This document shows, one piece after another, positions 7,373 to 45,771 of a stretch of DNA of 64,000 bases. Below the pieces are notes generated by a model, which worked only from the letters and a program-made list of their open reading frames with translations, ran no database searches and had not been told where the DNA came from. The DNA is from Ruminococcus sp. (GTDB lineage: Bacteria > Bacillota > Clostridia > Oscillospirales > Acutalibacteraceae). The position numbers were made by a program, and so were the translations under genes. The stretch lies in the NCBI GenBank assembly GCA_017457955.1, contig JAFTGL010000002.1, positions 1 through 64,000 on the forward strand, written 5' to 3'. Numbering within the stretch: the stretch's first letter is position 1; every line of letters begins with the position of its first letter.

Positions 7373-7413
7373 GTCATTGCGAGCCCTTTAGGGCGTGGCA
7401 ATCCCACAAAGAG
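7373..7413. repeat. Dispersed palindromic repeat (TCATTGCGAG...GTGGCAATC type)
   Basis: The segment begins TCATTGCGAGCCC and continues through GGGCGTGGCAATC, forming an imperfect hairpin. From memory, similar TCATTGCGAG/GGCAATC units occur in many copies between genes in diverse bacteria. Only one copy was noticed here. Confidence 0.5.
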
Positions 7414-7471: not shown

Positions 7472-7500
7472 TTGCACACCATCGAACGTTATGGTAGAAT
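7472..7500 (+). promoter_or_regulatory. Promoter of the 7.5-kb noncoding RNA
   Basis: TTGCAC (7472-7477), 17 bp, TAGAAT (7495-7500). The predicted start near 7507 coincides with the first base of a long RNA stem. Confidence 0.7.
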
Positions 7501-7506
7501 AAAGTT

Positions 7507-7751
7507 GCCAACAATTACAAACTGAATAATCAGTGCATTTTATATGTATCAGTATAAGTGTGCCTATTTTAACGCATTACTATGTTAGATGTGTTTTTTG
7601 CTTTTGTAAAAAACACGGCTCTACTATTAGACACTCTAACTTAGTTTTATGCTAAAATAGGCTTGTACTGATATGTTTGTAATTGTTTGGCGACGATTTC
7701 GGAGCTTCGTGTTTTTTGGGCGTACGGCTTTTGAAGTCGTACGCCTTTTTT
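7507..7751 (+). ncRNA. Noncoding RNA with long closing stem, 6S-like candidate
   Basis: The predicted transcript begins with GCCAACAATTACAAAC (7507-7522), which pairs with 7675-7691 with one bulged base. An asymmetric internal loop of about 23 nt follows. Then comes a second helix (GCCTATTTTA at 7562-7571 with TAAAATAGGC at 7653-7662, extended by the CAGTA/TACTG arms), a bubble, a GTTAGA/TCTAAC helix and an apical hairpin (GTGTTTTTT / AAAAAACAC). A terminator ends the unit. A rod of about 185 nt with its 5' and 3' ends paired and a large internal bubble is the plan of 6S RNA, which binds RNA polymerase. The alternative is a leader with an attenuator for the gene at 7777. Confidence 0.6.
7719..7751 (+). 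terminator. Terminator of the 7.5-kb noncoding RNA
   Basis: GGCGTACG (7719-7726) pairs with CGTACGCC (7738-7745), with an extra CTT/AAG inside, followed by six T. It stands 26 bp before the next start codon. Confidence 0.9.
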
Positions 7752-7776
7752 ATTACCCGGAAACGAAGGAATCAAA

Positions 7777-8616
7777 ATGCAAACAGACAAAACAATAGGC
7801 GCCGATAATCTTCCCGTATCGATCTGTTATAACGGTAATTATATCTGTAAGACCGATCTGATGATCTATATCAATAATTTGCTCCGCATGAACCGGTTAT
7901 TCGATCAGATGAGAGCCGAAAACAAGAAACGCGACACAAAGATCGAGGGACTCAAGGCGCTTGCCAAAAGAAAGCAGTTTTATCTTCCCACTCGATCTGC
8001 ACCGCAAAAGCCGACCGGACTGAGCGCCCTTTCATCTTCTAAAAGACAAAAATATGAAAAAGAACTTTGGGACTACAATCTCTGGCTTTCTCAGGAAGAC
8101 GATCGACGCGCCATATTAGCACGGCAGGAAAAGGAAGAGGATGAGCGAATCGCGGATATCTATAAAGAAATCGATCAAATACGAGACGAGCAATTTGCAA
8201 CTATCAACGCAATGGCTGAGCTGACCGAACTGCATCGTCAGGAGTATGAAAAGCAGATCATCTCCCCCGATTACCGCGATCCTGACATTTTGGAGCTATT
8301 GCTCTCCTATCTCTTTAACAACCGCGCCAATACGCTGACCGAAGCGATCAATCTCTATCACGAGGAAATGCATCGCAGACAGGTTGAACAAATGCTGAAC
8401 AAGCAATCCCGCTTTGCCGAATTGCAGTTAAAGTCACAACAGCAAATGGCGCGTGATAATATGCGGGCGCAGTTGGCGTTGATTGAGGAACAACGTATCA
8501 CCCGCCAACAGCAGGCGGAACAGGCACAGCAGCAGCTAAACGCTATCAATGAAGCAAAATCGGTCATCAAGGACATTCGCTTTTACGAGCAAATGCTATA
8601 TTTACAAAATTTATAA
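7777..8616 (+). CDS. Cassette A coiled-coil protein (CYNG / EAIN-YHEEMHR family)
   Basis: A 279-residue soluble protein of unknown function and a clear paralogue of the protein at 44697-45467. Shared landmarks are a CYNGNYI segment near residue 13, a KPTG-ALS segment near residue 80, a long charged coiled-coil, and the best conserved block LLLSYLFNNRANTLTEAIN followed by YHEEMHR (about residues 170-195). A Gln-rich helical tail ends the protein. GAAGGA precedes the ATG. The next gene begins 14 bp downstream, an MGLF/Sel1 gene as in cassette B. There is no signal peptide, so it is probably cytoplasmic or peripheral. The region is more AT-rich than its neighbours. Confidence 0.7.
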   Translation: MQTDKTIGADNLPVSICYNGNYICKTDLMIYINNLLRMNRLFDQMRAENKKRDTKIEGLKALAKRKQFYLPTRSAPQKPTGLSALSSSKRQKYEKELWDYNLWLSQEDDRRAILARQEKEEDERIADIYKEIDQIRDEQFATINAMAELTELHRQEYEKQIISPDYRDPDILELLLSYLFNNRANTLTEAINLYHEEMHRRQVEQMLNKQSRFAELQLKSQQQMARDNMRAQLALIEEQRITRQQQAEQAQQQLNAINEAKSVIKDIRFYEQMLYLQNL

Positions 8617-8630
8617 AAGGAGATCAAATT

Positions 8631-9524
8631 ATGGGATTATTCAGTAGGAAAAAGAAAGAAAAGTATGTACCGGATTACCCTCTTGAGTACTATGTAAACC
8701 AAATTGATGTTGATGTGTTCAAGGAAATAGTCTATAACAACTTAAATGCTTCCATCATTATAGGCTCGAAAGAAAAACATGATAGTTACGTTTACGCTAA
8801 TGATATGACTTTCAAATATTGGAACCTTTGGACTATTTCATTATCAGAACAAGGAAAGTTTGATGAATAAGCAGATAAAGCCTTAAAATTCTATGGAATA
8901 ATACATTCAACTAAATATGAGCTTAAAAACTTTTTGGAAACTGCCGCGGAAAAAGGCTGCGGTATTGCCGCCATCTATTTAGCACTCCACTATGAACACG
9001 GCATTGGTGTAGAAAAGGACTCTGCAAAAGCAAATTCCTACTACAGCATGGCGCAGACCGTTGATCCGTCCGTGACCCCGATCATCGACATCATCAATGC
9101 GGTAAAACAAAAAATGTGGTTCCGCTATGACTGGTGCACCGATCAGGACGAAACCCTCGCGGTTAACCTGTGGTTCAACAACAACGAGGGTTGGAACGAA
9201 AGCGATGTCAGCCACTGCGACATGGTCGCCGCCTTAGACAGTAGGCTGAGAACAGATTACTTACGTTTTACCACATGGCTTTTGTTCTATTACGCTTCAA
9301 CAGATAACAGCGTATGGGCAAAGGGTATGCTGGGCTATGCTCTGAAAGACTACCGCGAATATGTACAAAGCAACCGTCTTTATGATTTTTTATCAAATGA
9401 AACGGTCGAAGATATAGATAAAGCAGGTTTTTCTCTTTTGCTGGAACTCTGGAACATGAGTCAAAGCGGCAACGGCTTCGCCAACAAATTCTGTTTGGAT
9501 TTTGACATCTATCCCCGCGCATAA
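8631..9524 (+). pseudogene. Cassette A MGLF/Sel1-repeat gene, interrupted by an in-frame TAA
   Basis: The reading frame opens at 8631 (MGLFSRKKKEK) behind a good AAAAGGAG site and stops at TAA 8868-8870. It then continues in the same frame to 9524 with protein-like sequence, including a Sel1-type repeat (AAIYLALHYEHGIGVEKD followed by YYSMA). There is no frameshift: a single nonsense codon separates a 79-residue start from a long remainder, and no ribosome binding site supports restart. The intact paralogue is at 43797-44672. This is best read as a recent pseudogene, though a sequencing error, phase switching or readthrough is possible. It follows the coiled-coil gene by 14 bp. Confidence 0.7.
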
Positions 9525-24466: not shown

Positions 24467-24502
24467 AAAGGCTGTTTCATCCAACAAGGTGAAACAGCCT
24501 TT
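24467..24502. terminator. Bidirectional terminator
   Basis: AAAGGCTGTTTCA (24467-24479) pairs perfectly with TGAAACAGCCTTT (24490-24502). The stop codon of the minus-strand XRE gene lies at its edge. Confidence 0.9.
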
Positions 24503-24701
24503 ATCTTTTATCACTCAGACCAAGAATATAACCTGTCGAGGTATGATAAAACCTCGCCAATGCTATCAGCACATCGGTCGGGATATCTCTCTTGCCCAGC
24601 TCATAACGCGAATATGCTACTTGCGTGCAATTCAGATAGGCGGCAATATCCTTCTGCAATAAATCATTATCTTCCCGAAGCTCTCTGATTCTTTGATACA
24701 T
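24501..24701 (-). CDS. Small XRE-family repressor
   Basis: A 66-residue protein that is little more than one helix-turn-helix (LQKDIAAYLNCTQVAYSRYELG), followed by the usual ARFYHTSTGYILGLSD end. It is close in sequence to the regulator at 45577-45771. GAGGAG precedes the ATG. It lies 18 bp after another XRE gene on the same strand, so the two may be co-transcribed. It probably binds the inverted repeat upstream of the pair, or a distant site; the target is unproven. Confidence 0.85.
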   Translation of the reverse strand: MYQRIRELREDNDLLQKDIAAYLNCTQVAYSRYELGKRDIPTDVLIALARFYHTSTGYILGLSDKR

Positions 24702-24719
24702 CTGCCGCTCCTCTATATA

Positions 24720-25001
24720 TTATATAGAACCTTTCATGTCGTCAATAATGAGTCTTATATGTGATATCTGTTTATCGGTCAGACCGCTGACGTCTATGAC
24801 TTTTTTATCATCCAGATTCAGTAAATAATCCGTGCTGACCGAAAAATACTTTGCTATTTTCACGAGCATATCGACAGACGGCATGATGTTATCGTTCTCC
24901 CAATTGGAAATACTTTGCTTGGAAACGAAAAGAGCTTCTGCTAAATCGACCTGACTGACACCTTTTGCCAGTCTCAATTTCTTGATATTCTCGCTCAGCA
25001 T
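24720..25001 (-). CDS. XRE-family repressor
   Basis: A 93-residue regulator with an N-terminal helix-turn-helix (VSQVDLAEALFVSKQSISNWEN) and a short C-terminal extension (VIDVSGLTDKQISHIRLIIDDM) that probably dimerises. GGAG precedes the ATG. It is divergent from the membrane protein at 25136. The gap contains an ACAATAC-N4-GTATTGT inverted repeat overlapping both promoters, so it likely represses itself and its neighbour. The area is AT-rich and accessory-like. Confidence 0.87.
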   Translation of the reverse strand: MLSENIKKLRLAKGVSQVDLAEALFVSKQSISNWENDNIMPSVDMLVKIAKYFSVSTDYLLNLDDKKVIDVSGLTDKQISHIRLIIDDMKGSI

Positions 25002-43796: not shown

Positions 43797-44672
43797 TTAG
43801 AATTCTGTATTATTGATTCTACATGCGTGGATTGCATGTGGATCTCCCGCCTGCGCCTGAAGCCATACCTTAGCAGCAAGTGCAACAAGGCTCTCATTGC
43901 TATATTCCCCCCTAATTTCAATTTCGTTATCAAAGAAGGTATCTTGTTGCATATTTACCCTTTTCTTTATAAAGTTACTTGTATTTAATGTACTAAATGG
44001 ATAACCCTTTTCTTGACACATAATTGTACCTAATGTTGTCAGCTTTCTCAGCATTTTACAATCATCAGAATTGAGATGCTTCGTTATTTCACGCGTTGTC
44101 GTATCCGGACATTCCGGAGTGGTACTAAAGAATAAGTTACTTAAAACAAACTCGTCTCTTTCCTTAAAGATGCTCTTGTCATATGGAGCGGTCCGCAGAT
44201 AATCCAATAAAGGCAACAGATGACATCCTTGTTCTTTTGCGATTTGGTAATGATAATCAGCCATACCCGGACTCGTTTCATGTAAACCAGTCATTAAACC
44301 ATACTCTTTGTTTACCCCCAGAAAAAACGCAACATTTGGGTCATCTCCCCTTTGTTCAATTATCTCGAGGATTGATACCGGTAAAATCGTTCCCCGTCTG
44401 AAATCTTTAAATTTAGAAGGTAATTTATGTGTAAATATTCTTTTATAATCATACGCTTCACAGTGATCAGAAATTGAATAATAGGATGTTAACTTTAATG
44501 ATATCGGATATCCCACCCGAGAACTGTAGAAGTTCTCTGTTTCTTCATTGTCTATGTATACGATTCTTATGCTTGAAAAAGCCATGCGTTCCAGCACTGA
44601 TGACGGCTCCTGCTGTAAGAATTCTTCAATTGTTTCACACTGTTGTGTTTTTTGTTTTCCGAATAATCCCAT
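43797..44672 (-). CDS. Cassette B MGLF/Sel1-repeat protein
   Basis: A 291-residue protein of unknown function starting MGLFGKQK, like the broken gene of cassette A (MGLFSRKK). A Sel1-type repeat is visible at about residues 110-145 (FFLGVNKEYGLMTG, then YHYQIAKEQGC), and a final helical pair ends the protein (LVALAAKVWLQAQAGDPHA). Sel1 repeats usually mediate protein-protein contacts. There is no signal peptide. It lies 24 bp after the coiled-coil gene and is probably co-transcribed. The composition is AT-rich. Outside the start and the Sel1-like part, similarity to the cassette A copy is low by eye. Confidence 0.65.
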   Translation of the reverse strand: MGLFGKQKTQQCETIEEFLQQEPSSVLERMAFSSIRIVYIDNEETENFYSSRVGYPISLKLTSYYSISDHCEAYDYKRIFTHKLPSKFKDFRRGTILPVSILEIIEQRGDDPNVAFFLGVNKEYGLMTGLHETSPGMADYHYQIAKEQGCHLLPLLDYLRTAPYDKSIFKERDEFVLSNLFFSTTPECPDTTTREITKHLNSDDCKMLRKLTTLGTIMCQEKGYPFSTLNTSNFIKKRVNMQQDTFFDNEIEIRGEYSNESLVALAAKVWLQAQAGDPHAIHACRINNTEF

Positions 44673-44696: not shown

Positions 44697-45467
44697 TTAA
44701 TTTGTAAGCAAATTAAGAAAAGAGAAAAACTCCGCCCCCTGAGCAGCTTTTTTGGCGTCCTCTGCTGCCTCCAAAGCTTGCCGTTGAAGCTCACGCTGCT
44801 CTTTTAAAACCTGCATTTGCTGCCACGCCATATCCATTTGCTCTCGTCGCATTCTTTTGACTTCTACCAGTTGTTCTTGTGACAACAACATCATCTGCAT
44901 ACGATGCATTTCCTCATGATAAATATTAATCGCCTCGGACAATGTCATTGCTCTGCCGCTGAACAGATAGTTCAATAACAACTCGGGTATATTATCTAAG
45001 CGATATTGCAGAGCTATAACATTTAATGCTATGAGTTCTTTATAACGATTGCCGACATAATTCATCCGTCCCATCATTTTGAAATCTTCATCCATAATTT
45101 TTTCCCGACGTTTCTTTATTTTAGCTATTCGCGCATCCTCTTCAGCTTCTAAGCGCATTCGTTCTTTCTCTCTTTGATCAGTCGTATTCAACCACTGCTG
45201 ATACTCTCGTTTTCTCTTACCTGACAGTGCAGTAAATCCCGTTGGCTTTTCCACAACAGGCATAAAAATTTTCCGTCTCGTCATCAACAACTCCAACTGA
45301 TTCAATTCCTTATTATGTTCATCTATTAATTTCGGAAATCCATCCGCCTCTTTTTTCAAATCAATTATTTCATAAAGATAAAGTATAAGTTCAGCCTTTG
45401 TAATGTATTTTCCGTTATAACAAACTGACAACTCACTAAAGCCTTCACCTAACTGAACATCATTCAT
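44697..45467 (-). CDS. Cassette B coiled-coil protein (CYNG / EAIN-YHEEMHR family)
   Basis: A 256-residue soluble protein and paralogue of 7777-8616. Shared blocks are LSVCYNGKYITKAEL near the start, KPTGFTALS near residue 75, a Lys/Glu-rich coiled-coil, and LLLNYLFSGRAMTLSEAIN followed by YHEEMHRMQ (about residues 163-195). A helical Gln/Glu tail follows. The ATG at 45467 has AGAGGTGA upstream; six earlier codons overlap that site. It is divergent from a small XRE repressor, with inverted-repeat operators in between, so the cassette is probably kept silent until a signal. Function unknown. Confidence 0.7.
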   Translation of the reverse strand: MNDVQLGEGFSELSVCYNGKYITKAELILYLYEIIDLKKEADGFPKLIDEHNKELNQLELLMTRRKIFMPVVEKPTGFTALSGKRKREYQQWLNTTDQREKERMRLEAEEDARIAKIKKRREKIMDEDFKMMGRMNYVGNRYKELIALNVIALQYRLDNIPELLLNYLFSGRAMTLSEAINIYHEEMHRMQMMLLSQEQLVEVKRMRREQMDMAWQQMQVLKEQRELQRQALEAAEDAKKAAQGAEFFSFLNLLTN

Positions 45468-45491: not shown

Positions 45492-45509
45492 TAGTACTTT
45501 TAAGTACTA
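45492..45509. promoter_or_regulatory. Operator 1 of cassette B
   Basis: TAGTACTT-TT-AAGTACTA, an 8-bp perfect inverted repeat just downstream of the cassette promoter (-10 at 45517-45522). Confidence 0.65.
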
Positions 45510-45516
45510 TATACGA

Positions 45517-45545
45517 ATAATATCATATGAAGATGGTAAAGTCAA
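45517..45545 (-). promoter_or_regulatory. Cassette B promoter
   Basis: Minus strand: TTGACT (45540-45545), 17 bp, TATTAT (45517-45522). Confidence 0.75.
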
Positions 45546-45566
45546 TAGTATCAATCAGTACTATTG
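45543..45566. promoter_or_regulatory. Operator 2 of cassette B
   Basis: CAATAGTA (45543-45550), 8 bp, TACTATTG (45559-45566). It overlaps the cassette -35 and lies just before the XRE start, sharing the AGTACTA half-site with operator 1. Confidence 0.6.
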
Positions 45567-45576
45567 GGGCGATTTT

Positions 45577-45771
45577 GTGTATTTTAAACGATTAAGAGAT
45601 TTACGGGAAGATCATGATTTAAAGCAAAAGGACATTGCAGAATATCTCGGAATTGCACAAACAGTCTATTCCAGATATGAGCGAGGTTTCCAAACTATTC
45701 CGGTTGAGCATTTGATAAAGTTGGCGGACTATTATCAAGTTTCAACCGACTATATTCTCGGCAGAAGGTAA
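45577..45771 (+). CDS. Small XRE-family repressor, divergent from cassette B
   Basis: A 64-residue helix-turn-helix protein (LKQKDIAEYLGIAQTVYSRYERG, read in two parts, then LADYYQVSTDYILG). The only plausible start is the GTG at 45577, with GGGG about 6 nt upstream. It is similar to the XRE protein at 24501-24701. The two inverted repeats between it and cassette B share an AGTACTA half-site and cover the cassette promoter, so it probably represses the cassette and itself. AT-rich like the cassette. Confidence 0.85.
   Translation: MYFKRLRDLREDHDLKQKDIAEYLGIAQTVYSRYERGFQTIPVEHLIKLADYYQVSTDYILGRR

Follow-up and report, generated by a model that had tools for sequence, protein, structure and literature searches.

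In the first 64,000 nucleotides of a Ruminococcus sp. contig (JAFTGL010000002.1; hereafter the window), an earlier note had described a two-gene cassette that occurs twice, each time as a gene for a coiled-coil protein followed by a gene whose product begins MGLF. We read copy A of this cassette, with a probability of roughly 0.68, as an acquired unit made up of a cis-acting attenuator leader, the coiled-coil gene and a broken MGLF/Sel1-like partner. The earlier note mentioned neither the leader RNA that precedes copy A nor the break in the partner gene. A wider proposal, toward which the evidence tilts slightly, is that the leader belongs to a new family-wide pseudoknotted class, a candidate orphan riboswitch for much of the surface and secreted repertoire (BspA-type leucine-rich repeat (LRR), dockerin, CHAP, lectin and lipoproteins) of a large lineage of uncultured Clostridia, which an undescribed mobile two-protein system would have co-opted. 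The window is part of contig 11 (66,085 bases) of its genome, G000, a 1.83-Mb assembly of 15 contigs that is 74% complete. The label "coiled coil" was inferred from amino-acid composition, with no coiled-coil predictor behind the name.

The leader region upstream of copy A (7500-7780, 281 nt) folds with a z-score of -9.65. A DNA search of the window's genome returned three further copies (fold z of -7.3, -6.6 and -8.5), each shortly upstream of a gene. The first of these genes encodes a small protein with hydrophobic segments and no Pfam match. Both other products have a signal-like start, one with fn3 domains and the other with BspA-type LRRs and, by eye, a dockerin-like stretch. The four copies align, and RNAalifold assigned 53 pairs, 12 of them changed on both sides. 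A covariance model trained on these four sequences (R1) scored the window leader at 238.6 bits, a value that is high by construction for a training member. At E ≤ 0.001, R1 matched 96 of the 161 genomes searched in the genus and returned as many as ten elements from a single genome; these E-values are rough, following a short calibration, and the weakest of the matches may be chance. A negative control set of 27 rpsT loci, taken from other genomes, contained no leader match at E ≤ 0.01. Among the best 33 R1 matches, four of which are the training set, 95.6% of cells were paired and 29 of 45 pairs were changed on both sides in an alignment that was fitted to the model, which favors the pairing score; none of 500 shuffles scored as high, and slid alignments were 39-46% paired. 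Weaker matches in the window's genome lie at G000:C7:92463-92700, G000:C5:13433-13628 and G000:C15:117078-117306 (80, 60 and 47 bits), the first without an open reading frame (ORF) linked to a ribosome-binding site (RBS) within 200 nt.

A second covariance model, R2, delineated 97 elements in 93 loci selected from the best of R1: the 30 loci delivered first, three loci of the window's genome (L042, L046 and L048) and 60 further rows, the last comprising all remaining matches down to 78 bits plus one row from genome G117 at 60 bits. In a family search with one genome per genus, R2 at E ≤ 1e-5 matched 14 of 70 genomes, the window's included, and thus 13 other genera. The closest relatives of the window leader (L050-L052) are 82-83% identical and precede genes with a signal-like start that are BspA-LRR-like by eye. 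Elements also occur in clusters, with three in a row in L135:2538-3186 and two in L090:515-1086, and L131:501-2567 holds two elements, each with its own gene behind. A known Rfam RNA was rejected, since at the gathering score no Rfam 15 family matches the window leader, and at relaxed E only sub-threshold chance matches fell over the window element (best E = 0.37) and nothing over the elements tested at 3 + 20 loci elsewhere. By these comparisons the leader is a predicted member of a new, widespread, covarying RNA family. It turns up in more than half of the genomes searched within the genus and in 13 further genera of the bacterial family, has no match in Rfam, and offers a ready candidate for an orphan riboswitch or attenuator.

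The anatomy of the element (Table 1) runs from promoter to terminator. The promoter is of the sigma70 type. The motif TGnTAnnnT lies just upstream of 95 of the 97 leader copies, compared with 7.8% of random 52-nt stretches, and 85 of 97 have a -35 match at 16-18 nt spacing. GCCAAC near the start and TTTGGCG are both kept in 82/97 elements. In the closing helix P1, 9 of 17 pairs were changed on both sides over 32 distinct sequences. In other genera its core GCCAA/TTGGC is replaced by GCGAC/GTCGC (L145, L146, L147 and L157, and L148 by reading inside the match), a swap that is, as aligned, a compensatory change in the most conserved helix. The terminator shows 7 of 11 modeled pairs changed on both sides, with 99.4% of cells paired. 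For the pseudoknot, the mean pairing energy of strands with their own partners beats that with swapped partners (0/5000 permutations as good, 50 sequences), and this held for 17 family-level sequences (1/5000). Its strands change together across genera, for example AAAAAUGCAAAUUCC with GGAGUUUGCGUUUUU in L141. Because the inner hairpin and the pseudoknot both use the AAAAAACAC strand (7608-7616), the two exclude each other.

The leader has compensatory changes in its fold and a same-strand 5' position. Its inner hairpin and pseudoknot overlap over 7608-7616, and no structure was found that opens the terminator. A by-eye idea, in which GGCGACGA would pair with the 3' arm of the terminator as an antiterminator, was dropped; varying terminators lose this pairing. 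We infer that the leader is best read as an orphan attenuator or riboswitch-like class. RNA polymerase would start at the leader promoter and normally stop at the terminator, while a signal, whether a small ligand, a protein or a physical cue, would shift the balance between inner hairpin and pseudoknot. The pseudoknot abuts the terminator stem, and this balance would set the amount of read-through into the gene.

The position of the elements relative to genes was scored for 88 of the 97, the other nine having less than 200 nt of sequence downstream. An RBS-linked ORF on the same strand begins within 200 nt downstream of 76/88 and within 60 nt of 55/88. On the opposite side the counts are 23/88 and 2/88, an imperfect control, as the promoter lies there. 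By a simple hydrophobicity rule (heuristic signal or transmembrane segment), exported or membrane-like products are encoded by 62 of the 76 client genes and by 31 of the 70 non-client genes in these loci (Fisher P = 3e-6). A domain scan covered 64 of the 71 client products of at least 100 amino acids, seven near-duplicates having been dropped by eye, and found BspA-type LRRs (LRR_5) in 20, dockerin in 16, CHAP in 7 and ricin-type lectin in 5. The coiled-coil protein is one of the 14/76 clients not called exported. Leader RNA control would therefore apply mainly to exported, surface and membrane proteins across the genus, with the cassette a minority, non-exported client. The client list, with its BspA-type repeats, dockerins, CHAP, lectin and lipoprotein-like proteins, suggests that one signal controls what these bacteria show their surroundings.

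Copy A sits between rpsT and acpP. A search for rpsT in 30 genus genomes gave 28 matches, two of which bear on the history of this site. In G017, whose rpsT is 94% identical, the gap of about 125 nt between rpsT and acpP contains no leader and no cassette; in G012 (also 94% identical) the two genes are separated by about 870 nt of different DNA that lacks the element. For the remaining genomes with a match, the stretch examined beyond rpsT, 1.5 kb at most, contained no acpP. Since the G017 site holds neither component, the predicted leader and the cassette were gained at the rpsT/acpP site in the window's species or lost in the relative. Copy A is probably a horizontally acquired, sporadic unit, judging from this comparison of sites. 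An interspersed repeat, gtcattgcgagccctttagggcgtg-caatcccacaaag, lies at 7373-7411 and, with one difference, also between rpsT and acpP in G012 (L160).

The coiled-coil proteins of copies A and B, claimed earlier as paralogs, do occupy open frames and share 35% identity across 237 residues (E = 5e-42). The blocks on which that claim was built (YNG near the start, KP-G--ALS and LLL-YL---RA-TL--AIN-YHEE) recur in a third species. Homologs were sought among 198 relatives with protein A, in 161 genus genomes with a three-sequence profile, and in 391 class and 394 order genomes (the sets overlap); together these searches yielded a single further full-length homolog, in G117, another species of the genus. 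A scan of 84,980 species, which depends on two short peptide patterns and makes only close relatives visible, returned the G117 contig as sole relative (ONLA01000054.1, uncultured Clostridiales bacterium RUG394, identical over the 10,768 bases compared).

In each of these three homologs, two in the window's genome and one in G117, an MGLF gene lies directly downstream. It begins 14 nt (A), 24 nt (B) or 30 nt (G117) after the coiled-coil gene, which upholds the same-strand spacing of 14-24 bp reported before for the window. Of the 161 genus genomes, two carry the full-length coiled-coil gene, and the full-length MGLF gene was found in exactly these two. An MGLF profile searched in the 161 genus and 394 order genomes matched one order genome, namely the window's own, and found no MGLF homolog without a coiled-coil neighbor in either set. 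With a partner beside each of the three coiled-coil genes and no MGLF gene found on its own, the pairing is real, although it rests on three loci; in sequence terms, every full-length copy found, three in all, keeps the two genes together. The coincidence that the earlier note had allowed for, with homologs usually lacking an MGLF/Sel1 neighbor, was not observed, and the database co-occurrence that it had called for was found, at three loci only.

Kinship of the two window MGLF proteins is drawn through the 297-residue G117 partner, because both align to it: MGLF B over its whole length (E = 3e-17), and MGLF A with its larger piece (E = 3e-7) and its first piece (E = 0.001). Compared directly, MGLF B matches the larger A piece at 24% over 75 residues (E = 0.005), with no alignment to the first 79 amino acids of A. 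The copies are well diverged, with 33-50% identity between the coiled-coil proteins and 20-28% between the MGLF proteins, the 20% referring to the larger A piece. The second gene, reported for both places, is intact in B; in A it is not one open frame, and an in-frame TAA (8868-8870) splits it into 79 and 217 codons. This may be decay or an assembly error. The Sel1-type repeat ascribed to both proteins survives in part: PF08238 scores 23.8 bits in MGLF A against a curated cut-off of 30.7, and MGLF B has no Pfam match. A three-sequence MGLF profile searched against solved structures gave Sel1/TPR-type proteins as its best matches, all weak (E = 0.0015 and up).

The conserved block LLL-YLF--RA-TL-EAIN-YHEEMHR is not confined to the pair: zinc-ribbon and membrane proteins, both from other Clostridia and from the window's genome, end in a matching stretch. 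In hhalign, the C-terminal half of the coiled-coil protein matched these proteins over 64 aligned columns (98.2% probability, E = 5.6e-14). One example in the window's genome (L037:6453-7082, minus strand) is a small protein with hydrophobic segments and the same terminal GRA-T-EAL module. Five proteins with this module had no Pfam match above cut-off. Among their neighbors, 34 scanned of 50 listed, nothing recurred except zinc ribbons (3/34), and a function for the module by way of its neighbors was rejected on that count. The conserved pairing, the common C-terminal module and the Sel1-like repeat together suggest a joint scaffold/adaptor role, in which the cytosolic coiled-coil-like protein would act as scaffold, its C-terminal module docking a common target, and the MGLF/Sel1-like protein would attach to this scaffold as an adaptor.

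Both copies lie in AT-rich DNA, as had been stated, with 42% GC for the copy A island and 38% for that of copy B versus 50-59% in most other 2-kb segments of the window. A third low-GC stretch at 24-28 kb holds two more XRE-type genes (HTH_3; 24501-25001, minus strand) alongside small proteins that by eye are of membrane or zinc-ribbon type, and the coiled-coil/MGLF pair was not found there. By Pfam, the neighbors of copy A are ribosomal protein S20, acyl carrier protein and a PlsX-type protein, and those of copy B are pyruvate:ferredoxin oxidoreductase and a valyl-type tRNA synthetase. The G117 cassette is flanked by a CotH/dockerin protein and a GGDEF-EAL protein, not by an XRE gene; near it, in L024:2057-3264, a Ser/Thr kinase gene (PF00069) is divergent to one for a 142-residue protein with no Pfam match that is helix-turn-helix-like by eye.

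Control of copy B appears to differ. The leader RNA is absent there, copy A being the only match to the model within the window, and an XRE gene lies divergently 109 bp away. From this arrangement and the operator-like palindromes, copy B is probably controlled by the divergent XRE repressor; it would make the same pair under that repressor in place of the RNA leader. As a small and undescribed pair of proteins, the cassette seems to rely on a different control logic at each copy, an RNA leader at A and an XRE regulator at B, which makes promoter and RNA control comparable on paralogous genes.

Table 1. Features of copy A, its leader, and copy B in the window
Feature	Position	Strand	Details and basis
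Leader promoter	7472..7500	+	TTGCAC, 17 nt, TAGAAT, extended -10 (TGG); read from sequence
Leader RNA (~250 nt)	7503..7752	+	Structured family without Rfam 15 match; fold, homologs in the window's genome, covariance model
P1 closing helix, 5' strand	7504..7522	+	GTTGCCAACAATTACAAAC; partner 7675-7694
P1 closing helix, 3' strand	7675..7694	+	GTTTGTAATTGTTTGGCGAC; partner 7504-7522
Inner hairpin	7591..7616	+	GTGTTTTTT/AAAAAACAC; arms 7591-7599 and 7608-7616; 5/9 pairs changed on both sides
Pseudoknot, 5' strand	7608..7621	+	AAAAAACAC-G-GCTC; complementary to 7709-7717 and 7701-7705; overlaps 3' arm of inner hairpin
Pseudoknot, 3' strand	7701..7717	+	GGAGC-TTC-GTGTTTTTT; directly before terminator
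Predicted intrinsic terminator	7718..7752	+	13-bp stem and T run; ends 24 nt before coiled-coil ATG
Coiled-coil-like protein, copy A (279 aa)	7777..8616	+	ORF; paralogy; C-terminal block common to zinc-ribbon/membrane proteins
MGLF gene, copy A, first piece (79 aa)	8631..8870	+	Closed by in-frame TAA; ORF, homology to G117 partner
MGLF gene, copy A, second piece (217 codons)	8871..9524	+	Same frame; weak Sel1 match; homology to G117 partner
MGLF gene, copy B, intact (291 aa)	43797..44672	-	ORF; homology to G117 partner
Coiled-coil-like protein, copy B (256 aa)	44697..45467	-	ORF; paralogy
Operator-like palindrome	45492..45509	.	TAGTACTT-AA-AAGTACTA; perfect, 8-bp arms
Promoter of copy B	45517..45545	-	TTGACT, 17 nt, TATTAT; identical hexamers and spacing upstream of G117 copy
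Operator-like palindrome	45543..45566	.	CAATAGTA-8 nt-TACTATTG; perfect, 8-bp arms; overlaps -35
Divergent XRE-type regulator gene adjoining copy B (64 aa)	45577..45771	+	HTH_3, E = 4.1e-16, 59.2 bits vs cut-off 23

The leader's structure, promoter, terminator, position and client bias are established by computation only, and several observations count against an attenuator that drives the cassette. Within the genus the pseudoknot strands hardly vary (130/5000 permutations as good) and no pseudoknot pair is changed on both sides; the pseudoknot is missing from L152, one of the 17 sequences at family level; and no antiterminator opening the terminator stem was identified. R1 has no match in 65 of the 161 genus genomes, and 12 of 88 elements are without an RBS-linked ORF within 200 nt. 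The cassette itself is known from three loci, one of the four cassette genes in the window is broken, and no shared neighbor and no Pfam family above cut-off hints at its biochemical role. Those 12 elements, and the fact that each element is a complete promoter-to-terminator unit, would also suit a stand-alone small RNA gene acting in trans, close to genes by chance or joint inheritance. We regard this as unlikely, given that 55/88 elements end within 60 nt of a same-strand, RBS-linked start versus 2 on the other, imperfect control side, and that the clients, though diverse, are enriched in exported proteins. Far less probable is a mobile palindromic repeat, similar to a miniature inverted-repeat transposable element, inserting ahead of genes and bringing a promoter along: the element is palindromic, has several copies in many genomes and lies at some contig ends, but its helices carry compensatory changes and its orientation to the gene is fixed. 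A recent mobile repeat is likewise disfavored by identities, since copies within a genome (87 pairs; median 48%, maximum 69%) are no more alike than copies in different genomes (4569 pairs; median 48%). The least probable of the alternatives makes the leader a target of an antiterminator of the LoaP/NusG-paralog type. A hairpin-bearing leader ahead of genes does resemble LoaP targets, but the NusG counts disfavor such a factor: in G000, G015, G017 and G035, each with 6 to 9 elements, a single NusG-domain protein (PF02357) was found per genome, and a second turned up only in G030, which has one element (31 of 37 genomes, which are incomplete, gave any match).

For the gene pair, the main competitor to an acquired unit under leader control is a toxin-antitoxin or defense system under XRE control. 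The two-gene operon, its patchy occurrence and AT-rich setting, and the XRE gene with operator-like palindromes at copy B all fit such a system, as do the matches of the XRE protein to PADLOC regulator models (HTH_VI, best, E = 7e-9; capH, 1e-7; RmrA and others), although these may reflect no more than the common XRE fold. That match was the sole one among eight neighbor proteins, the seven others having none, and PADLOC 2.0 gave 0 matches at E ≤ 1 for seven coiled-coil/MGLF proteins. Viral-contig scans held no relative of either profile, and phage and plasmid records, searched with coiled-coil protein A, gave no match. PHROGs matches below 1e-3 were confined to the Sel1-like region of an MGLF A piece and to an L003 protein. 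No XRE gene adjoins copy A (by eye) or the G117 copy, and copy A is retained despite its broken second gene. A defense or phage origin was rejected for want of PADLOC or viral-contig support for the pair and of phage or plasmid support for coiled-coil protein A, and we judge the toxin-antitoxin or defense reading as a whole quite improbable. The earlier suggestion of an effector, stress or defense module accordingly finds no support, the pair having no PADLOC match and housekeeping neighbors; the XRE neighbors that had been anticipated are limited to copy B. The pair does remain "undescribed", as it had been termed, within Pfam, NCBIfam, PHROGs and PADLOC. Coincidence, or recent duplication of one locus, would be compatible with a sample of three loci and is very improbable: at 33-50% and 20-28% identity in the two genes, order and a spacing of 14-30 nt are kept, at three different sites in two species.

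Several known systems resemble parts of this one. Sel1 repeat proteins (PF08238) share the one Sel1-like repeat of MGLF A and the weak match of the MGLF profile to solved Sel1 proteins; they differ in that MGLF A is sub-threshold, MGLF B is without a Pfam match, and the repeat is single rather than an array. Unnamed zinc-ribbon/membrane proteins ending in GRADT-x-EAIN (L037:6453-7082, L026 and L034) share the 64-column C-terminal module of the coiled-coil protein, whose N-terminal half is replaced in them by zinc ribbons and/or hydrophobic segments (by eye). Compared with riboswitch and attenuator leaders (Rfam Cis-reg), the tested elements have no Rfam 15 match and their clients are mostly exported proteins, not one pathway, whereas the covarying fold, pseudoknot, competing hairpin and terminator just before the ribosome site are all familiar, as are several copies in many genomes and tandem copies at two or more loci (L135, L090). 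A search of open-licence papers returned no prior description of the leader or of the gene pair, and one related case, PMC5815224. The kind, a structured leader with a terminator, is thus known, and neither this family nor its set of clients seems to have been described in the literature searched. As described in PMC5815224, the 5'-UTR (untranslated region) of the C. papyrosolvens xyl-doc cluster is a putative riboswitch before dockerin genes, reported to block transcription, with relief by corn stover. That leader concerns one cluster in four Clostridium species and exceeds 400 nt, and the comparison is by description, not sequence; like the leader reported here, it is a stem-loop leader proposed to switch and to end transcription before a cluster of dockerin proteins.

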